DNA of 25,609 bases from positions 1 to 25,609 of IMG/VR virus record IMGVR_UViG_3300044972_000332. One strand, given 5' to 3'. The DNA comes from a virus. Position 1 is the first letter of the stretch. Each line of letters opens with the position of its first letter. Shown here in pieces: positions 6,582 to 18,496 of the stretch. A program made the translations under genes and the position numbers. A model generated the notes under the pieces. The model was not told the DNA's origin, made no database searches, and worked only from the letters and a program-made list of their open reading frames with translations.

Positions 6582-6741
6582 GGTTTTTATCCTTCAGTTT
6601 GGTTTCAATCTCTTTTGCAAAATCGTTAACGTGACCACCATAAATTATTTTCCACTTGTCACACATCGCCTTCAACTCCTCGTCTGTCAGCGGCCTCCAT
6701 GGGCGCGTGTACTCCTGAATGTCATCGTCGTCGTATCTCAT
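6574..6741 (-). CDS. Small conserved phage protein, 55 residues
   Basis: The start is set at ATG 6741, in ATGA overlap with the Rap1a-like gene, although the frame is open 21 bases further up. The core is RPLTDEELKAMCDKW followed by FAKEIETKLKDKN. This matches the common phage motif P-L-T-(D/E)-E-E-(I/L)...F-A-(R/K)-x-I-E-x-K-L-K-x-K-N found in many short proteins of unknown function. A related arrangement ends the 65-residue protein at 8229-8426 (GLTEDEIPDIYV...KWAEARLKEKN). Confidence 0.8.
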   Translation of the reverse strand: MRYDDDDIQEYTRPWRPLTDEELKAMCDKWKIIYGGHVNDFAKEIETKLKDKNHG

Positions 6742-7073
6742 GTTAGCCCTTTCTTCGCGCATGGTGCGCGTTGTGCGAACACTGCCGCCAGTAGGTGGTC
6801 CGCGCCCCTGTTAGGCCCGTGGTACCGCTCCAGTCCCTCTTGCGTCCACTTGATCAGCGTGTCCCTCGTTGGCGTCATGCCGGTTGGGCAGTGCACGATC
6901 CCCGTCATGGCGTCGTACGCGCCCTGCACGTAGCCGGTGGCCTGCACCGCCTGCGGGGTGTACTGGTGTTTGAGCGCGTCTTTAAGTTGCATGATAGTCA
7001 ACTGTTGAGAGTAAGCGCTCACTTCAAATAGGGCGCTTGCTGTGATGATGAGGGCTTTAATTACGCGGTTCAT
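6738..7073 (-). CDS. Secreted Rap1a/Tai-like protein
   Basis: Residues 1-24 form a signal peptide (MNRVIKALIITASALFEVSA then YSQQ), so the protein should be exported to the periplasm. The mature part has ATGYVQGAYDAMTGIVHCPTGMTPTRDTLIKW and then ADHLLAAVFAQRAPC. This follows the Rap1a/Tai domain pattern: GY..G..DA....CP.G.T...L......, then a helix ending in (A/F)PC, with two cysteines placed for a disulfide. Rap1a proteins protect Serratia from type VI effectors, but the fold is widespread in phages with no proven role. A periplasmic inhibitor or superinfection factor is an inference. The ATG has GGAG seven bases upstream and lies 17 bases inside the previous gene. Confidence 0.75.
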   Translation of the reverse strand: MNRVIKALIITASALFEVSAYSQQLTIMQLKDALKHQYTPQAVQATGYVQGAYDAMTGIVHCPTGMTPTRDTLIKWTQEGLERYHGPNRGADHLLAAVFAQRAPCAKKGLT

Positions 7074-7317
7074 GTCTTTGCTCCATCTCAGCCGCTAGGC
7101 TGTTTAGTTGGTCGTGTGCGTCGGGGTTCCATATTGCATCGTCTAGCGACGGGCCTGTTAGGGTCGTGTTGATGGTCCACTGGTTTGCCTCTCGGGTAAA
7201 CAGGGGCCGCAGGTACCGGCCCAACATGGCGTCGTCCACCAATCGGTCGGCTCTTGCCCGCTCCAATTCGTACGACCGCTTGTAGGCCTCTGCTAGTTGT
7301 ATCATTCTGTCAATCAT
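7057..7317 (-). CDS. Hypothetical protein, 86 residues
   Basis: The N-terminus is a charged helix (MIDRMIQLAEAYKRSYELERARADRLVDDAML). The rest is polar with LTGPSLDDAIWNPDAHDQLNSLAAEMEQ. GGAAG lies six bases before the ATG, which overlaps the end of the sigma factor gene by eight bases, so it is probably translated together with that factor. A helper of the sigma factor would be an attractive idea from position alone, but the sequence gives no direct support. Confidence 0.7.
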   Translation of the reverse strand: MIDRMIQLAEAYKRSYELERARADRLVDDAMLGRYLRPLFTREANQWTINTTLTGPSLDDAIWNPDAHDQLNSLAAEMEQRHEPRN

Positions 7318-7834
7318 AATCTTCTTCCGTTATTTGGTCTTTCTTGTACGCGTCCAGTGACACCGGTTGTCTCTGACTCACCACCAGTCTGTCGCGGACC
7401 CTGCTCTCTGACAGGCCCGTCAACTTGGCCACCTCTTTGGGTGTGGCCTCCCTGTTAAGCACTTGGGCCAACTCGGTCTCCACCCGCTTGATCTTGCGCA
7501 GGTCCTCCTGCACCGACACCGGCACGTGAATGAGTAGGGCCTTATTTTCCACCGCTCTGAGCACTTGGCTCTTGATCAGTGTGCGCGCGTAACTCGCAAA
7601 CCTTCCCTGCGGTTTCCACCGGTGTGCCGCTTTCATCAGGGCTATGTAGCCCTCCTGCAGTAGGTCGTCGCGTGTCATGCTCCCCGTCATGTCCCACTGT
7701 GGCAACTTCTGCACGATGTACACCACCAGTCCCATGTTGGCCTCCACCAACTGGTCGTGGGCCTCCTCGTCACCCTGCACGATCCGGTGGTGTAGTTCGA
7801 TCTCTTGTTCTGCCGTCAGTAGTTGTCGTCGCAT
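7310..7834 (-). CDS. Sigma-70 family factor lacking region 4
   Basis: The protein has 174 residues. Residues 5-35 resemble region 1.2/2.1 (LLTAEQEIELHHRIVQGDEEAHDQLVEANMGLV). Region 2 continues through DDLLQEGYIALMKAAHRW and RFASYARTLIKSQVLRAVEN, the core-binding and -10 recognition helices. Residues ~102-160 match region 3 (HVPVSVQEDLRKIKRVETEL, then REATPKEVAKLTGLSESRVRDRLVVSQRQPVSLD). The protein stops within 15 residues of region 3, so region 4, which reads the -35 box and touches the beta flap, is absent. It should redirect host RNA polymerase to phage promoters with a -10 or extended -10 type element. The start is TAATG-coupled to the gene upstream with GGAGAG as RBS. Confidence 0.88.
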   Translation of the reverse strand: MRRQLLTAEQEIELHHRIVQGDEEAHDQLVEANMGLVVYIVQKLPQWDMTGSMTRDDLLQEGYIALMKAAHRWKPQGRFASYARTLIKSQVLRAVENKALLIHVPVSVQEDLRKIKRVETELAQVLNREATPKEVAKLTGLSESRVRDRLVVSQRQPVSLDAYKKDQITEEDYD

Positions 7835-8815: not shown

Positions 8816-8930
<115 letters not shown>

Positions 8931-11400: not shown

Positions 11401-11655
11401 TTAAATTTCATAAATAACTACGTTGGGGTCAATCTTCATCAGGTCTTTTGCCGCACCTGATAACATGCGGTACTTCATCTGCGCCTCTGTGTGGCTGATC
11501 TCGCCATCACAGTACAGGTTTTCGGGGCTTAGTTGAATGTCGATCAACTCTGCCACCTGTTGTCTGCCTTCCGGTGTGTCGATTGTCAGGGCAGGGTTGC
11601 CGAAAATCTTACGCCAGTCGTTTTCTGCTTTGATAAATTTCTGTAACTTTTTCAT
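11401..11655 (-). CDS. Hypothetical protein, 84 residues, own leader repeat
   Basis: ATG 11655 has AAAGGAG six bases upstream and one copy of the conserved leader repeat 15 bases further up, so this gene probably has its own promoter. The protein is helical and polar (MKKLQKFIKAENDWRKIFGN, then TPEGRQQVAELIDIQLSPENLYCDGEISHTEAQMKYRMLSG). The DGEIS..EA..KYR segment recalls small phage proteins that count turns between helices. No family is assigned. The frame is open above the start only because it reads through the leader repeat. Confidence 0.75.
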   Translation of the reverse strand: MKKLQKFIKAENDWRKIFGNPALTIDTPEGRQQVAELIDIQLSPENLYCDGEISHTEAQMKYRMLSGAAKDLMKIDPNVVIYEI

Positions 11656-11669
11656 GGTTTGCTCCTTTG

Positions 11670-11697
11670 TACTACTATGGTCAATTGGGGGTGAATT
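11670..11697 (-). promoter_or_regulatory. Leader/promoter-like repeat, copy 1
   Basis: This is the first of eight near-identical copies, all read on the minus strand. The core is AATTCACCCCCAATTGACC followed by ATAGTAGTA, and it ends 10-15 bases before a strong RBS. The two AATT(C/G)ACC halves are direct repeats 11 bp apart, one helical turn. A TTGACC box and a loose TAGTAT could be -35/-10 elements, but the spacing (15 bp from the first half-site) is not canonical. A phage-specific promoter or an operator is equally possible. Here it also contains the TAA of the upstream gene. Confidence 0.75.
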
Positions 11698-13119: not shown

Positions 13120-13313
13120 TATTTTGCCCCTTGTGCTTGGTTGAATCGTTTGAATGCGTCATAGCGCAGGACTGCGTTTAGGTAATTGAAGTAGGTCTCG
13201 TGGCCACCGGCCTCCCACTCGTCCGAGGCCTTGCACTGCTCTTCGTACGATGGGAATTCCATCGTGGTGAACTGGCCTGCTCTGTCAATGATGTACAGTG
13301 GAAACTTTCTCAT
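13119..13313 (-). CDS. Hypothetical protein, 64 residues
   Basis: The start is ATGA-coupled to the preceding gene and has no good RBS of its own. The protein (MRKFPLYIIDRAGQFTTMEF, then PSYEEQCKASDEWEAGGHETYFNYLNAVLRYDAF) appears to be a short beta hairpin followed by two helices. No family is recognised. Confidence 0.7.
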   Translation of the reverse strand: MRKFPLYIIDRAGQFTTMEFPSYEEQCKASDEWEAGGHETYFNYLNAVLRYDAFKRFNQAQGAK

Positions 13314-13585
13314 GGTAAGTGTCTTTCATATTGTTGTGCAAAACCCAAAACGTGGGCATTCAATCTTTCTTGGTTGGTCAACTCAGCAAACAACTCGTGT
13401 TTGATCAGGCCCTCGCGCACTTTAGGCGCCAAGGTCCAAATGACGAACTTGTAGTCTCCGTTGAAGTATTCAACGGCCACACAGACACCATGCGCACTGC
13501 ACTTGGTATCGTCCAAGGCCTTGTAGGCCATCTTTTTGTAGTAAATGAAACCTCCGACGTCGTCGGTGTATGGTCGTGCTGTCAT
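13310..13585 (-). CDS. Hypothetical protein, 91 residues, own leader repeat
   Basis: AGGAG lies seven bases before ATG 13585, with leader copy 2 just upstream. The protein has a beta-rich front (RPYTDDVGGFIYYKKMAYKA, then SAHGVCVAVEYFNGDYKFVIWTL) and a helical back (KVREGLIKHELFAELTNQERLNAHVLGFAQQYE). It looks globular. No function is known. Longer versions of this frame run through the repeat and are not supported. Confidence 0.75.
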   Translation of the reverse strand: MTARPYTDDVGGFIYYKKMAYKALDDTKCSAHGVCVAVEYFNGDYKFVIWTLAPKVREGLIKHELFAELTNQERLNAHVLGFAQQYERHLP

Positions 13586-13606
13586 GGTGTGCTCCTGTGT
13601 TGTTGA

Positions 13607-13634
13607 TACTACTATGGTCAATTGGGGGTGAATT
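13607..13634 (-). promoter_or_regulatory. Leader/promoter-like repeat, copy 2
   Basis: The copy has the same core and downstream ATAGTAGTATCA as copy 1, 22 bases upstream of ATG 13585. The stop of the 77-residue gene lies at its edge, so it fills the whole gap between the two genes. No hairpin accompanies it. Confidence 0.75.
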
Positions 13635-13893: not shown

Positions 13894-13992
13894 TTACATG
13901 GGCGCGTCTTCGTGATTGTCAGGGTTAAACTTGGGCACGTTGGCGCCCTTGTCCAGTGGGTTTGGAAATGGGGGAAATGGCCAGTTTGTCAT
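13894..13992 (-). CDS. Tiny proline-rich protein, 32 residues
   Basis: ATG 13992 forms ATGA with the stop of the 31-residue membrane protein. The product begins MTNWPFPPFPNPLDKGANVP and ends KFNPDNHEDAPM. Six prolines in 20 residues and W/F spacing suggest an extended peptide. Translation rests only on stop-start coupling, so this is less certain than its neighbours. Confidence 0.5.
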   Translation of the reverse strand: MTNWPFPPFPNPLDKGANVPKFNPDNHEDAPM

Positions 13993-14084
13993 GGTTTCAT
14001 TACGTAAAGAAAATAATAAAACAGCGGGCCACCGATTAGGACGGCCATTATCAGGGCCTCGATAAACTCTCTAAGGTATTTCAT
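13989..14084 (-). CDS. Single-pass membrane peptide, 31 residues
   Basis: ATG 14084 makes ATGA with the stop of the 62-residue gene. The product begins MKYLREFIEALIMAVLIGGP and ends LFYYFLYVMKP: a short charged head followed by one hydrophobic helix. Small single-helix proteins of this type are common in phages, but this one cannot be assigned. The much longer frame open above it is an artefact of reading through the upstream gene and repeat. Confidence 0.65.
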   Translation of the reverse strand: MKYLREFIEALIMAVLIGGPLFYYFLYVMKP

Positions 14085-14269
14085 GCTTGAAAAGCCTCTT
14101 TGATTTTCCTGTACTCGTGTAGTGCAATGTTCAGGTCGTTGTTGGTATCTGTGCGCTCTTCGCGTGTCAGATCGTCGCTGTGCTCTTCGGCCAAGAACTT
14201 GGCCATTGTGTACAGCAGGTTGACGTTTAGGTCGCGCCACTGTTTTTCTGTGATTGTGATTGTCTTCAT
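14081..14269 (-). CDS. Hypothetical helical protein, 62 residues, own leader repeat
   Basis: AGGAG stands seven bases before ATG 14269, with leader copy 3 directly upstream. The protein (MKTITITEKQWRDLNVNLLY, TMAKFLAEEHSDDLTREERT, NNDLNIALHEYRKIKEAFQA) is a beta strand followed by two or three helices. No family is recognised. It heads a short coupled run with the 31- and 32-residue peptides. Confidence 0.75.
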   Translation of the reverse strand: MKTITITEKQWRDLNVNLLYTMAKFLAEEHSDDLTREERTDTNNDLNIALHEYRKIKEAFQA

Positions 14270-14285
14270 TGTTTTCTCCTGTTGA

Positions 14286-14313
14286 TACTACTATGGTCAA
14301 TTGGGGGTGAATT
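14286..14313 (-). promoter_or_regulatory. Leader/promoter-like repeat, copy 3
   Basis: The core and ATAGTAGTATCA extension are identical to copy 2. It lies 17 bases before ATG 14269, and the TAA of the 77-residue gene falls in its first bases. No hairpin accompanies it. Confidence 0.75.
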
Positions 14314-14545
14314 AGTCCTGCAGGACCCGCAGGTCCGGTGTGAGACGCACTCGGTTTCCCAACTCGTCCCATCCCTGTGCGATCGCGTCGGTGGCCTTGC
14401 GGATCTGCGCGACCTTGTTTGTCCTGATCAACTCATGGCCTGTTGGCAGGACCATGGATATGTTGCTGATCCCGTTGGTGCGCGCTGTGGCCACAAAATC
14501 CATTGCGACCATGTGCTGTGTGCGTGTCAGTTTGGTGTAGGTCAT
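14312..14545 (-). CDS. Hypothetical protein, 77 residues
   Basis: ATG 14545 has AAGGAG six bases upstream and also forms ATGA with the preceding gene. The protein (MTYTKLTRTQHMVAMDFVAT, ARTNGISNISMVLPTGHELI, RTNKVAQIRKATDAIAQGWD) looks like a small alpha-beta domain with a basic middle and an Arg/Leu-rich end. No function is known. Confidence 0.75.
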   Translation of the reverse strand: MTYTKLTRTQHMVAMDFVATARTNGISNISMVLPTGHELIRTNKVAQIRKATDAIAQGWDELGNRVRLTPDLRVLQD

Positions 14546-14808
14546 GTTGTGCTCCTTAACTGTTTGATGAATTTGACTAGGCCGGCCTTGTTGGGCTCGA
14601 CGCATGGGGCCTGTATGTATTTGCCTGCGTAATTACTGCCGGACCACTTGTCGTCGTGCTCGAAAACAAAATCGTCGTATCCCAATGCGTTGCGAATGCC
14701 AACTGCACTGGTGTTGAATCGGTCCATCAGGTCCGACACAAAAATGCGTCGGCCTGTTGCGATGTATTGGTCGAGCACGTAGGCCCTGATCGCGTCTGCG
14801 TTTTTCAC
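14542..14808 (-). CDS. Putative winged-helix or HTH protein, 88 residues
   Basis: I start at GTG 14808, which overlaps the preceding TGA (GTGA); a second GTG 12 bases further up is less likely because it lies inside that gene. Residues ~4-45 (ADAIRAYVLDQYIATGRRIF, VSDLMDRFNTSAVGIRNALG) read like a helix-turn-helix: a helix, then V-S-D-L-x-x-x-F as the second helix and S-A-V-G-I-R-N-A-L as recognition helix. A wing-like beta region follows. A DNA-binding regulator is plausible from this pattern. Confidence 0.68.
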   Translation of the reverse strand: MKNADAIRAYVLDQYIATGRRIFVSDLMDRFNTSAVGIRNALGYDDFVFEHDDKWSGSNYAGKYIQAPCVEPNKAGLVKFIKQLRSTT

Positions 14809-14963
14809 GACGCCACCCACTCTTCGTAGGTTTTGAGGGGCGCTCCCTCGCGTGTAATGTCGCCACCTTTGCCGTCGTCAGCACAGGCCAAGTAGATTTG
14901 ATACTCTTGGTCGTTGGTGCCTCGGGCCTGCGTTTGCCAGTCCTGTGTGTACTCTAATTGCAT
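14805..14963 (-). CDS. Small hypothetical protein, 52 residues
   Basis: AGGAG lies seven bases before ATG 14963, with leader copy 4 upstream. The product is MQLEYTQDWQTQARGTNDQE followed by YQIYLACADDGKGGDITREG and APLKTYEEWVAS. It fits a compact alpha-beta mini-domain in which strands alternate with D/G turns and end in (T/S)-Y-E-E-W. It is GTGA-coupled to the putative HTH gene downstream. Confidence 0.72.
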   Translation of the reverse strand: MQLEYTQDWQTQARGTNDQEYQIYLACADDGKGGDITREGAPLKTYEEWVAS

Positions 14964-14979
14964 GGTTTGCTCCTGTTGA

Positions 14980-15044
14980 TACTACTATGGTCAATTGGGG
15001 GTGAATTGATCTGCAATGGCCTGCACGCAGGCCATCACGCATCA
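14980..15044 (-). repeat. Leader repeat copy 4 with hairpin
   Basis: The segment has two parts. The minus-strand transcript first meets the hairpin (dyad 15016-15035, ATGGCCTGCACGCAGGCCAT on the plus strand, 8 bp stem and 4-nt loop), which begins at the stop of the peptidase-like gene. Then comes the leader core (14980-15007) in front of the RBS of the 52-residue gene. There is no U-tract after the stem, so it is not a standard intrinsic terminator. Processing, 3' end protection or partial termination are possible. Confidence 0.8.
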
Positions 15045-15422
15045 TTTTGCCGGCACGTAATAACCCTGCACTCGCGTGCGTGGTCCGCATTTGGCCATGT
15101 CCAACTGTGTGCCGTTGATCAGGGCAAACACATGGCCGGTTTTGTTGATCACTAGGCGCTCATGCTTGGCCCCGTCTTCGCGCATAAACTGCGCCAGTGT
15201 GGGCCTGTCGTTGCGCTTGATGTATGTCAGGCCCTTGCTTGCGTAAGCCCTGACCACGTCACCACGTGGCACGCCACGTCGATTTTTACGGCCGAATGAG
15301 GCCATGATCGCGTGCGCCTCACTGTATGGCATGTCGACCACGTGGGCCAATGCGCGCACTGTGCAATCACGCGCCTCTGTCACGTGCCGGCCGTCCGGCA
15401 CTGTCTTTTTGAATTTAACCAT
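15042..15422 (-). CDS. Predicted papain-like cysteine peptidase, 126 residues
   Basis: AAGGAG is seven bases before ATG 15422. The motif RDCTVRALAHVVDMPYSEAH (Cys20) followed much later by NKTGHVFALINGTQLDMAK (His about 96) matches a phage family with N-D-C-T-V-R-A-L and S-G-H-x-x-A-x-x-x-G, predicted to have a papain/C39-like fold with a Cys-His pair. Between them is a basic stretch (GRKNRRGVPRGDV) and PTLAQFMRE. Cleavage has not been shown for this family to my knowledge, so peptidase activity is an inference. Its stop is the first codon of the hairpin repeat. Confidence 0.78.
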   Translation of the reverse strand: MVKFKKTVPDGRHVTEARDCTVRALAHVVDMPYSEAHAIMASFGRKNRRGVPRGDVVRAYASKGLTYIKRNDRPTLAQFMREDGAKHERLVINKTGHVFALINGTQLDMAKCGPRTRVQGYYVPAK

Positions 15423-15432
15423 GGTGTGCTCC

Positions 15433-15645
15433 TTAGTTTGTAAAAAATCCGTCGATGCGGTAAATGTGGCCGTCGGTGCCTTGCAACAGGGCCTCTAATT
15501 CTGCCTTGTGGGCGCTGTCCATTTTGAATGTCAACGTTTCCCATTTGCGTGTCTGCGCATTCCAGTTAATGGCCACACCATACTCACGTGGGTAAAAATG
15601 GCTTTTTGAATGCATGCGACGTTGAAATGCGTATAACTTATCCAT
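15433..15645 (-). CDS. Hypothetical protein, 70 residues, own leader repeat
   Basis: AGGAG precedes ATG 15645 by nine bases. The protein is basic at the front (MDKLYAFQRRMHSKSHFYPR), then has a strand pair around WNAQTRKWETLTFKM and a helix (HKAELEALLQG). No family is recognised. It lies in a repeat-bounded cassette with the peptidase-like gene downstream. Confidence 0.73.
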   Translation of the reverse strand: MDKLYAFQRRMHSKSHFYPREYGVAINWNAQTRKWETLTFKMDSAHKAELEALLQGTDGHIYRIDGFFTN

Positions 15646-15671
15646 GGTGTTTTCTCCTGTTTTGTTGCTGA

Positions 15672-15736
15672 TACTACTATGGTCAATTGGGGGTGAATTG
15701 ATCTGCAATGGCCTGCACGCAGGCCATCACGCATCA
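15672..15736 (-). repeat. Leader repeat copy 5 with hairpin
   Basis: The 65 bp segment matches copy 4 throughout (leader 15672-15699, hairpin dyad 15708-15727). It separates the Cys-rich protein gene from the 70-residue gene and leaves only one base before the TAA of the former. The identity with copy 4 is long enough to allow homologous recombination between the two. Confidence 0.8.
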
Positions 15737-15737
15737 A

Positions 15738-16481
15738 TTATGCTGTCGCGCGCTGTTCTGTGAAACGTCGTGCCTTGTTGCCATGCACAATGATCACAGG
15801 GCTTGCGCCAGTGGATTTGGTCGTGCCGTTGCACGCGCCACACGTATCACACAGTTTGCGCTTACCGGCCTCTTCACTGGCAGGGCACACGAATTCGCGC
15901 TCCTGCAGGGCCTCGGTGGCCAAGCGAATGCGAAAGTAACGCAGGCCACTGGCGCGTGCCTGTTGGGCCTCTTCTACTGTGTCTACACTGGCCATGGTCA
16001 ATTGTGCAATGTCTGCGCGATGGTCCATTGGCAGGGCCTCGTTGGCCCATTGGTGTGTGTACCCTGTACGGCCGACGGCCTGTGCTGTCAGGGCCTGCCA
16101 TACGTTGGCCGGCACAGCGGCAGGGTCACCATACGTGCCTAGACGCACCATGCGTCCGGCCACCATGGTGCCCACGTCGGCCGGTGTGGCGTCGGGGTAT
16201 TTGCCGGCCTGCATGGTTTTGAAAACCACTGTAGGACCTTGGGCCACGACCACGTAGCACGCGCCACCTAAAAAGGGCCGGTGTTTGCAATTGCCACAAA
16301 TGGCGCTGTCCGCACCAGTTTGGACGGCCAAGGTCGGGCGCATGTCGTCGCGCAGGATATAGGTCTGCACCATATTGCCTGTCTTGCGATTACTGGACCC
16401 AAGCAGGGCAATGGCCACAATTGGTGTGCCGTCCAATAATGAGGGTCCGCGGTATATAACGTATCCGGTGGGTTTTTTCAT
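15738..16481 (-). CDS. Cys-rich conserved phage protein (DUF7227-like), 247 residues
   Basis: ATG 16481 has AGGAG seven bases upstream. The protein starts MKKPTGYVIYRGPSLLDGTP and carries CGNCKHRPFLGGACYV, then FAGR-like VAGRMVRLGTYGDPAAVP, TGYTHQWANEALPM, and near the end CPASEEAGKRKLCDTCGACN. This is a widespread phage family (DUF7227 as far as I recall) with two Cys clusters that probably bind metal. R-(I/L)-G-(S/T)-Y-G-D-P and T-G-Y-T-H-Q-W are its best conserved blocks. The role is not known; a resemblance to replication-protein-like Cys clusters has no test here. It is the largest gene of the cassette region. Confidence 0.85.
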   Translation of the reverse strand: MKKPTGYVIYRGPSLLDGTPIVAIALLGSSNRKTGNMVQTYILRDDMRPTLAVQTGADSAICGNCKHRPFLGGACYVVVAQGPTVVFKTMQAGKYPDATPADVGTMVAGRMVRLGTYGDPAAVPANVWQALTAQAVGRTGYTHQWANEALPMDHRADIAQLTMASVDTVEEAQQARASGLRYFRIRLATEALQEREFVCPASEEAGKRKLCDTCGACNGTTKSTGASPVIIVHGNKARRFTEQRATA

Positions 16482-16504
16482 GGTGTGCTCCTGTTGTTGA
16501 AAAT

Positions 16505-16541
16505 AATCTGCAATGGCCTGCACGCAGGCCATCACGCATTA
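16505..16541 (-). repeat. Hairpin repeat without leader core
   Basis: The hairpin (dyad 16513-16532) is the same as in copy 4, beginning at the TAA of the 88-residue gene. The AATTCACCCCCAATTGACC core is missing. Instead a short A-rich stretch leads to the RBS of the Cys-rich gene. This cassette may therefore depend on transcription from the copy upstream. Confidence 0.8.
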
Positions 16542-16805
16542 TTTGTAGGTCACGTAATAGGTTACGCGTCCGTTTTTCTCGTCGCCTACGTAATGCAGGT
16601 CGTCTTCATTGGCCGGCATCCACCATTGGTCACCGCGCTTTTTAGCGTAGGACATGATCGCGCCACGCACCAAACTAGGTGCGCCATGGTCCAAGGGTAT
16701 AGCCTCGGCCTTGTCGTTCAGGTCCATGCGCTGAACAAGAAAATACGACGATTTGGTGTTTGTCGCGGGTTTGAATGTCACTTTAAACAATGTTGCAATT
16801 GCCAT
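16539..16805 (-). CDS. Hypothetical protein, 88 residues
   Basis: AAGGAGG stands five bases before ATG 16805, with leader copy 6 above it. The protein (MAIATLFKVTFKPATNTKSS, YFLVQRMDLNDKAEAIPLDH, GAPSLVRGAIMSYAKKRGDQWWMP and a beta-rich tail NGRVTYYVTYK) has the look of a small beta domain with one helix. No family is recognised. Confidence 0.73.
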   Translation of the reverse strand: MAIATLFKVTFKPATNTKSSYFLVQRMDLNDKAEAIPLDHGAPSLVRGAIMSYAKKRGDQWWMPANEDDLHYVGDEKNGRVTYYVTYK

Positions 16806-16828
16806 GATGGCCTCCTTTTGGTTACTGA

Positions 16829-16893
16829 TACTACTATGGTCAATTGGGGGTCAATTGATCTGCAATGGCCTGCACGCAGGCCATCACGCATCA
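16829..16893 (-). repeat. Leader repeat copy 6 with hairpin
   Basis: The copy differs from copies 4 and 5 by one base in the core, which makes both half-sites AATTGACC and so a perfect direct repeat 11 bp apart. The hairpin dyad is at 16865-16884. The TGA of the 99-residue gene is the first codon of the repeat. Confidence 0.8.
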
Positions 16894-17190
16894 ATCAGTT
16901 TGGGTATCGGCCTGATAGGCCTCGTCCCATGCGTCCATGAAAGGGTTCACTGACCAGTCCATCATGGTTTCTTCGGGTTCGAGGCCGTAGGCGCTGACCT
17001 TGGCCCAACCGACCACGTTGTCGTCGCTATCACGCACGCGCAGGTCGGCCTCTTCTACTGACTTAACTGCGTCCATGATGGCCTTGAGGCTTGTGGATCG
17101 TTTGACCTGCCACTCTTCACCATCGAACACTGAAATGGTGCATTGTTTGGCTAATGAATACTTGATAAAGTGAATGTATGCTGTTTGCAT
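16891..17190 (-). CDS. Acidic hypothetical protein, 99 residues
   Basis: AGGAG is seven bases before ATG 17190. The N-terminal half is mixed (MQTAYIHFIKYSLAKQCTIS, VFDGEEWQVKRS) and the C-terminal half is acidic (SVEEADLRVRDSDDNVVGWA, EPEETMMDWSVNPFMDAWDE). Small acidic early proteins are often anti-defence or host-takeover factors, but nothing beyond charge supports that here. Confidence 0.73.
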   Translation of the reverse strand: MQTAYIHFIKYSLAKQCTISVFDGEEWQVKRSTSLKAIMDAVKSVEEADLRVRDSDDNVVGWAKVSAYGLEPEETMMDWSVNPFMDAWDEAYQADTQTD

Positions 17191-17218
17191 GGTTTGCTCC
17201 TGTTGGTTGGTAACACTG

Positions 17219-17278
17219 ATATGGTCAATTGGGGGTCAATTGATCTGCAATGACCTGCACGCAGGCCATCACGCATCG
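17219..17278 (-). repeat. Leader repeat copy 7 with hairpin, diverged
   Basis: Both half-sites are AATTGACC as in copy 6, but six bases after the core are missing, so the ATAGTAGTA extension is replaced by ATATCAGTG. The hairpin (17250-17269) has one base change that turns a G-C pair into G-U in the minus-strand RNA, so the stem is kept. This is weak support for selection on the RNA structure. Confidence 0.75.
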
Positions 17279-17279
17279 A

Positions 17280-17597
17280 TTAAACCTTGTCGAAAATTGC
17301 GCAATCACTGAAATTGCCCAGAATGCGCGTTTTGTACTGTTCACCATTGATCAGGACAATGTCGCCATTTTCCAATGGTTTCATGCTGTTCAACCGGTCG
17401 CGGTGGGCAATGTCTGCCTCGCTGTAATGGCCCTGTAAACAGGCCGAATGTTGCAGGGCCCAATAGATGCCGTCGCCTGTTGTCTTGTAGTCCTTATACA
17501 AGCTTGCTTCGCTGTATATGCCACGTGTGCGTGGCAGGTTAATTGTGAACACGTTGTCGCGGTCCATTGTGTGCTGTGCTTCGTTGATAGTTTGCAT
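17280..17597 (-). CDS. First gene of the minus arm, hypothetical, 105 residues
   Basis: AAAGGAG lies seven bases before ATG 17597. The protein (MQTINEAQHTMDRDNVFTIN, LPRTRGIYSEASLYKDYKTT, then HSACLQGHYSEADIAHRDRL and PLENGDIVLINGEQYKTRIL) ends in a beta-rich segment. It is the gene nearest to the divergent hub and probably the earliest expressed. No family is recognised. Confidence 0.73.
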   Translation of the reverse strand: MQTINEAQHTMDRDNVFTINLPRTRGIYSEASLYKDYKTTGDGIYWALQHSACLQGHYSEADIAHRDRLNSMKPLENGDIVLINGEQYKTRILGNFSDCAIFDKV

Positions 17598-17627
17598 GGT
17601 GTGCTCCTTTAGGGGTTTGGTTTACTT

Positions 17628-17656
17628 ACACTATCATGGTCAATTGGGGGTGAATT
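17628..17656 (-). promoter_or_regulatory. Leader/promoter-like repeat, copy 8 (hub-proximal)
   Basis: The core AATTCACCCCCAATTGACC is intact, but the following bases are ATGATAGTGTAAG instead of ATAGTAGTATC. This is the outermost copy and marks where leftward transcription of the minus arm most likely begins. It is 31 bases from the first ATG. Confidence 0.75.
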
Positions 17657-17753
17657 AGGATCCGCATTAGACGATCTTCTAGGGGAATCGCGTGACCTTA
17701 TATATTAGTGCAATGACGCTACACAGGCAGATCGGCCTCGCGTGCGCATTGGT

Positions 17754-17955: not shown

Positions 17956-17962
17956 GCGCGCA

Positions 17963-18140
17963 TACTGTACTCGGTAGGGTATGCGCCTCGGTGGTACTGT
18001 ACTGGGTAGGGTATGCGCCTCGGTGGTACTGTACTGGGTAGGGTATGCGCCTCGGTGGTACTGTACCCCGTAGGGTATGCGACCAAGCCGGTACTATACC
18101 CCGTAGGGTATGCTACTATACCCCGTAGGGTATGAGGGGG
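17963..18140 (+). repeat. Six-unit tandem array, mostly 32 bp periods
   Basis: Units begin at 17963, 17995, 18027, 18059, 18092 and 18114, so the periods are 32, 32, 32, 33 and 22 bp. The common core is TACTRTACYCCGTAGGGTAT or the close TACTGTACTGGGTAGGGTAT. In units 4-6 the core becomes a dyad (ATACCC-CGTA-GGGTAT in units 5 and 6). The first three units are nearly identical, the last three diverge. It could be an iteron array for replication, a multi-site operator, or a set of promoters. Spacers are absent, so it is not CRISPR. Confidence 0.85.

Positions 18141-18384: not shown

Positions 18385-18496
<112 letters not shown>

Follow-up and report, generated by a model that had tools for sequence, protein, structure and literature searches.

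The stretch analysed here, hereafter the window, comprises positions 1 to 25,609 of the IMG/VR virus record IMGVR_UViG_3300044972_000332, a 25.6-kb phage contig that carries an array of small genes separated by repeated elements. Genes on its first 17.6 kb are read leftward, and the terminase and portal genes are read rightward from 18.6 kb. On the minus strand, between 17.66 and 11.67 kb, lie eight copies of a short element that we call the leader and five copies of a hairpin, all in the sense of transcription. The array runs from 17.66 kb to 11.4 kb, and everything in it is on the minus strand. An earlier note on this DNA had described an array of repeat units, and the array is indeed real: we count four hairpin+leader units, one hairpin alone and four leaders alone, with none expected in shuffled sequences.

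All eight leaders match AATTSACCCCCAATTGACCAT without mismatches, against zero expected from 100 dinucleotide-preserving shuffles. The copies resemble AATT[C/G]ACCCCCAATTGACCATAGTAGTATCA. The leader of the earlier note is present where it had been placed, but its conserved stretch is longer than described and continues as ATAGTAGTATCA or a close variant, so that the fuller form reads AATT[C/G]ACCCCCAATTGACC ATAGTAGTATCA; two of the eight copies have AATTGACC in place of AATTCACC. The five hairpins (again zero expected from shuffles) include one, at 17243-17276, with a single mismatch. Hairpin and leader overlap only in the outermost AATT. Each hairpin or bare leader begins at, or overlaps, the stop codon of the gene before it, except for the first leader (17.65 kb), which no gene precedes. 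After each leader or hairpin come a variable spacer, a conserved Shine-Dalgarno sequence (mostly GGAGCA-ACC-ATG) and the ATG. The leaders all stand at gene starts and form one island, as they do in a relative, G003 (53 kb); those of another, G017 (63 kb), likewise form one island.

Following the direction of transcription, the leftward operon is opened by a leader without a hairpin (17626-17656, motif match 17636-17656), which has orthologous first leaders in relatives. It precedes cassette gene f01 (17280-17597, 105 amino acids (aa)), which is absent or alternates with f02 in relatives. Unit 1 consists of a hairpin starting near the f01 stop codon (17242-17277, motif match 17243-17276, also supported by covariation) and a leader of the AATTGACCCCCAATTGACC form (17211-17241, motif match 17221-17241). 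It is followed by f02 (16891-17190, 99 aa), which belongs to phrog_5680, of unknown function, and is missing in G007, G009, G011 and G016. Unit 2 (hairpin 16857-16892, motif match 16858-16891; leader 16826-16856, motif match 16836-16856) precedes f03 (16539-16805, 88 aa). The hairpin without a leader (16505-16540, motif match 16506-16539), whose tail AGATTATTTT is terminator-like, stands before f04 (15738-16481, 247 aa; phrog_2554, C-terminal part). Unit 3 (hairpin 15700-15735, motif match 15701-15734; leader 15669-15699, motif match 15679-15699) is followed by f05 (15433-15645, 70 aa) and f06 (15042-15422, 126 aa, phrog_3754), and unit 4 (hairpin 15008-15043, motif match 15009-15042; leader 14977-15007, motif match 14987-15007) by f07 (14805-14963, 52 aa), f08 (14542-14808, 88 aa, GTG start) and f09 (14312-14545, 77 aa). 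Three leaders stand alone further on. The first of them (14283-14313, motif match 14293-14313) overlaps the f09 stop codon and precedes f10 (14081-14269, 62 aa), the second (13604-13634, motif match 13614-13634) precedes f13 (13310-13585, 91 aa), and the last (11667-11697, motif match 11677-11697) precedes f18 (11401-11655). Genes were mapped with a simple open reading frame caller, which missed some very small ones (e.g., 13894-13992).

None of the cargo genes belongs to a family whose function is known, and they lend no support to the anti-defence role suggested in the earlier note. The f06 protein has invariant Cys20, His97 and Asp108 and looks like a papain/C39-type cysteine peptidase; its predicted fold is nearest, with a best E of 1.2e-3, to the C39 peptidases of the AMS/PCAT and ComA transporters. 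For f04, the AlphaFold model was too poor to be used for assigning a function. Outside the array, the product of 6738-7073 (minus strand) weakly matches Rap1a immunity proteins (E 5e-5, below the cut-off).

When aligned, 21 distinct hairpins share a stem of 18 bp that is interrupted by a constant 2x2 internal loop, whereas their end loops vary. In this alignment 97.6% of the cells are paired and five pairs have changed on both sides; none of 500 shuffles does as well, and slid partners fail. This pairing and these two-sided changes, beyond what shuffles give, mean that the stem is under selection, as RNA or as DNA.

Relatives and turnover of the cassettes

A pattern scan of viral contigs found the same leader in 10 records. 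Relaxed scans for the leader, the hairpin and the core extended the set to 21 records (G001-G021), of which G014 was rejected because its hairpin match arose by chance in an AT-rich and unrelated contig. A terminase scan added 80 loci, part of which lie in records already in this set. The contigs are metagenomic and partial, and some records may be incomplete. Relatives of 53-63 kb have a gene content unlike that of T4. The terminase of G017 is 79% identical to that of the window and that of one other metagenomic record in the same collection 53%; the nearest cultured terminase relatives are the Caulobacter phages RW, GB2A and RLK, at about 41-43%. The exact leader had no match in the bacterial genomes searched, none of the cultured phages searched carried it (short matches occurred at chance level only), and no Rfam family matched the repeat. 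Near the window's own terminase, the plus-strand gene at 18578-19450 matches an N-terminal stretch of phage large-terminase profiles and is a separate gene ahead of those for endonuclease VII and the large terminase; possibly its product is intein-like (Hint).

The earlier note expected genes to be gained and lost with breakpoints in the units, and this is what the relatives display: rather than an identical gene order without breakpoints in the repeats, we found gain, loss, exchange and one relocation, with several breakpoints inside a unit. The head of the array carries f01, f02 or both. Gene f02 has been lost between two units in G007 and in others. G007 also lacks f07-f09, the three genes between the leaders at 15007 and 14313, and both breakpoints of this deletion lie in leader-RBS (ribosome-binding site) sequence, one of them at the leader of unit 4. 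The gene f07 is absent in G004, G005, G007, G011, G013, G015 and G016. In most genomes f04 has f03 and f05 as its neighbours and follows a hairpin without a leader; it has moved in G004, G006, G009 and G013 to a place after f06, behind a hairpin and leader and with a bare leader next. In the more distant phage G021, f04 (77% aa identity) heads the array.

A role of the units as special recombination sites was not supported, turnover of neighbours being no higher at junctions with a unit than at those without. Identity jumps between adjacent genes averaged 0.169 across units (n = 198) and 0.113 elsewhere (n = 437), a modest excess in genome pairs that are not independent (junction-level test, p = 0.034). 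As for an integron/attC reading, no integrase-like gene was noticed, although no follow-up was aimed at one.

A leader half that differs between lineages

The leader consists of two halves that behave differently. Its 3' half is constant, reading TGACCATAGTAGTATCA in the window and ACCA-N4-AGTA family-wide. Its 5' half, of 12-15 nucleotides (nt), is lineage-specific and nearly identical at all copies within one genome. For typing we used the part of about 12 nt before TGACC (or AACC, TACC), which gave at least 10 versions; this number is a minimum, obtained with 80 terminase relatives, the best among several hundred. Type 1, TTCACCCCCAAT, is found in the window and most relatives. Type 2, TCTGTGGGTAAA, stands instead at every leader copy of G013 (6/6) and G015 (4/4), two relatives with which the window has hairpins and cassette genes in common. 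The other versions are ACCACCCCCAAT/AGT in G016 (7/7), TTCACCCCGAGT in G011 (5/6), ACATGTACGGAT and close variants in G017-G019 (four copies in G017), CCCCCTGCCAAT in G021 (five copies), GCCCTACAGTT in L093 (five), AACACCCCGGAT in L084 (three), AGTACCCACGAAA in L098 and L140 (five and seven), AAATGTCCACTTTT in L105 (four), GTGGGGGTAAAA in L147 (three) and GGTACGTAGTT in L148 (three). The leaders of G005 are mixed, with two copies of each of two similar variants, as in a recombinant.

This pattern was quantified in 14 island-bearing genomes. The 12-nt parts differ on average by 0.53 nt within a genome, and by 3.04 nt between leaders of the same gene in different genomes, which is no better than for unrelated leaders (3.07); the contrast was matched by 0 of 2000 permutations. 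Type-2 genomes give much of this signal, the values without them being 0.58 within and 1.22 between. The change can be seen around f05, where hairpin, flanks, constant half and gene are nearly identical in the window and G015 and the recognition half alone is replaced, the unit 3 leader being of type 2 in G015. Cassette genes of these two phages are up to 100% identical in aa sequence, and their leader types differ. That the sites of a genome change together while their surroundings stay the same points to a factor that acts in trans and whose specificity differs by lineage, or else to conversion of very high efficiency. That a 3' half which is constant and a 5' half which varies meet within one 31-nt element favours a factor over conversion.

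Several further observations concern the leader and its neighbourhood. The halves of types 2 and 12 (L147, L044, which is G013, and L046, which is G015) resemble the type-1 motif reversed (p = 0.027 and 0.0025, uncorrected). The window also contains two inverted copies of an origin-like element (8816-8930 and 18385-18496), in which TTCAGGGTG (CACCCTGAA) repeats surround a poly-A/T tract of 27 nt. An AT tract flanked by short repeats in inverted orientation occurs in many relatives as well, with repeat sequences that are lineage-specific, e.g., ACCCTGCAAACCCTGCAAA in the type-2 phage G013, GGCTAGGTT in G017 and GCAGGGTTGGCAGGGT in G021, and the repeat and the leader of G021 have CCCTGCCAA in common. 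Overall, leader halves match the repeats of their own genome slightly better than those of others (P = 0.016), a weak link that relatedness confounds and that G017 and L148 do not show. The divergent control region holds tandem 32-bp repeats with GGTACTGTACTGGGTAGGGTATGCGCC (17961-18138), upstream of the first leader. In several relatives the first leader is closely preceded by a palindrome, CTAGACGATCGTCTAG, which is imperfect in the window (17657-17690) and reads CTAGTTGGCCAACTAG in G004; it is possibly an operator.

Possible roles of hairpin and leader

A clue to the role of the leader comes from the related lineage G017-G019. There, the constant half, TTGACCATAGTATTATCA, mostly stands straight after GC-rich hairpins with U-tracts (GAGCCCGGCAGCC..GGTTGCCGGGCTTTTTT), which by their sequence are textbook terminators. 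Provided that these terminators work and that the genes are expressed, transcription would have to restart within the leader of about 50 nt. Such terminators directly upstream of the leader suggest that the unit is most likely a terminator (or an RNA-processing hairpin) followed by a promoter. Several genomes have a short hairpin (e.g., CAGGCAAATGCCTG) just 3' of the first leader's constant half, as at the 5' end of an mRNA. The constant half offers TAGTAT/TATTAT as a likely -10 element, and the 5' half sits where a -35 element would be; promoter activity and the position of the -10 are what we infer from this arrangement.

An ordinary sigma-70 promoter was dropped as a reading for the window, where no consistent -35 was found. 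A sigma-70-family protein is encoded in the window (7310-7834, minus strand); it matches profiles for regions 2 and 3, without a full region 4 and with no region 4 above the cut-off. A corresponding protein with sigma-70 region 2 is present in 7 of 7 relatives tested, and the homologues within the group are 34-100% identical. We regard it as a candidate partner of the constant leader half.

We favour the reading, with a probability of roughly 0.58, that the array consists of shuffled cassettes whose promoters are recognised by a putative phage-specific trans factor. Each full-unit cassette would begin with a promoter of its own and end with a stem-loop that is joined to the stop codon and acts as a terminator or in RNA processing. 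The constant 3' half of that promoter probably carries the -10 element and the start point, and its 5' half of 12-15 nt would be the recognition site, specific to the phage lineage. A factor in trans, most likely phage-encoded, would read this half and switch all cassettes of its own genome together. Phages would trade cassettes by recombining within the sequence that they share, namely the hairpin, the constant half, the RBS and genes nearby, with the resident recognition half kept uniform by conversion or selection. A more specific version, which we consider tentative and rather doubtful, is that of a code in the promoters whose key can be exchanged: the constant core would be read by conserved machinery, for which the phage sigma factor lacking region 4 may be a candidate, and the lineage key by a phage-encoded partner replacing sigma region 4. 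Keys would then switch genome-wide, and traded cassettes would always obey the resident one.

Several points weigh against the favoured reading. A simple consensus scan detected no sigma-70 site and no recognisable -35 at the window leaders, and the putative -10 matches no more than partly. G011 and G016 have slightly different variants of the leader, and yet their sigma protein is 97-98% identical to that of type-1 genomes. The type-2 contigs, of 6 kb, end too soon to reveal a candidate trans factor. Because the window hairpins lack a U-tract, except at 16505-16540, they may serve RNA processing rather than termination. Finally, two genomes are about as likely to differ in the right-hand neighbour at junctions that lack a unit as at those that have one.

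Other explanations account for parts of these data. The leader might be an operator by which a phage repressor or regulator controls an ordinary promoter, the variable half giving the immunity type and the constant half the promoter. Immunity sites are typically short, uniform in a genome, lineage-specific and different between gene-sharing phages (cf. the stoperators of cluster A; PMC6550527), and the resemblance of types 2 and 12 to type 1 in the opposite orientation suits a DNA-binding protein better than RNA polymerase. We nevertheless think this unlikely, as the sites of the window and G003 all lie at gene starts in one island, and the proteins inspected in the window, G003 and G017 included no recognisable repressor or integrase, in a search that was not exhaustive. 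Less likely still is that leader and hairpin are 5' untranslated RNA elements of one long early transcript, combining RNase III-type processing with a translation-control site bound by an RNA-binding protein or a small RNA. Its appeal lies in the stem, which resembles processing sites in its length of about 18 bp, its constant 2x2 internal loop and its lack of a U-tract, in the fusion of stop codon, hairpin, leader and RBS, and in the covariation, which means that structure matters; U-tract terminators immediately 5' of the same leader in G017-G019 and a leader-to-RBS distance that ranges from about 0 to more than 30 nt speak against it.

That the 5' halves track hosts, and are read by a host sigma factor or regulator instead of a phage factor, seems to us improbable. 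The type-5 leader has a fair -35 (TTTACA, 18-nt spacer) that might suit a host sigma-70; however, types 1, 2, 7 and 9 have no -35 in common, and the cassette genes that the window and G015 share at up to 100% aa identity, with their different leader types, suggest a common host pool. It is very improbable that the repeats are mainly recombination tracts whose uniformity is a by-product of recombination and gene conversion, without recognition in trans. Conversion does yield homogeneity within a genome, and both the breakpoints inside units and the mixture in G005 fit such a view, but conversion alone accounts neither for a constant 3' half beside a lineage-variable 5' half nor for the equal turnover at junctions without units.

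Whatever reads them, the leaders form a natural series of at least 10 promoter specificities, if promoters they are, on one scaffold in phages, some of which have genes in common. Should there be a cognate phage factor, one could follow in this series how a regulator changes along with every one of its sites in a genome; the series would also explain how shuffled cassettes come under single control and would offer mutually independent promoters. In addition, leader and hairpin can serve as a marker for this uncultured phage group and its accessory genes.

Comparison with known systems

The promoters of T7-like single-subunit RNA polymerases (T7, T3, SP6, K11) join a variable upstream recognition part to a constant initiation part, with one type per phage. 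The leader is likewise a variable upstream part joined to a constant one. However, no gene for such a polymerase (PF00940) was found in seven relatives (G017, G003 and five others, some of these records perhaps being incomplete), with phage T7 detected as the positive control, and a T7-type promoter was dropped as a reading.

The closest known kinds are stoperators, ESAS and promoter-early stem-loop cassettes (PeSLs), each of which has at least one defining feature that the array described here lacks. Stoperators of cluster A mycobacteriophages are many short oriented sites per genome, with a motif of their own in each phage that differs between heteroimmune phages; they are spread genome-wide, mostly not associated with promoters, and bound by a known phage repressor (PMC6550527). 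The window shares with them the many short oriented sites and the genome-specific motif, but its sites all stand at gene starts in one island, and no repressor was recognised among the proteins looked at.

In cluster K mycobacteriophages, SAS and ESAS repeats precede numerous small genes; a shorter element close to the start is accompanied by an inverted repeat, and the consensus differs between subclusters. The SAS is a 13-bp sequence that includes the Shine-Dalgarno sequence and lies 3-9 bp from the start codon, and the ESAS holds a putative SigA-like promoter overlapping an inverted repeat of 15-17 bp (PMC3203893, PMC11373665). Repeats before many small genes, with an inverted repeat and a start-proximal element, are common to both systems. 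Unlike the SAS, the window leader lies upstream of a separate RBS at varying distance, and unlike the ESAS, the window hairpin follows the upstream stop codon and precedes the leader, sharing only the outermost AATT with it, and no SigA-like -35 is seen.

PeSLs of T4-type phages, in the summary given in PMC4503421, place a promoter and a stem-loop between small early genes and accompany the modular shuffling of accessory genes. The array may resemble them: it has a repeated hairpin+leader unit between small genes, with a putative promoter role deduced from the G017 terminators only, and breakpoints occur within the units, although turnover is not enriched there. The array differs from PeSLs in that a simple scan found no sigma-70 early promoter consensus at the window leaders, in that the window phage is not of the T4 type, and in that its recognition half is genome-specific and changes in concert.

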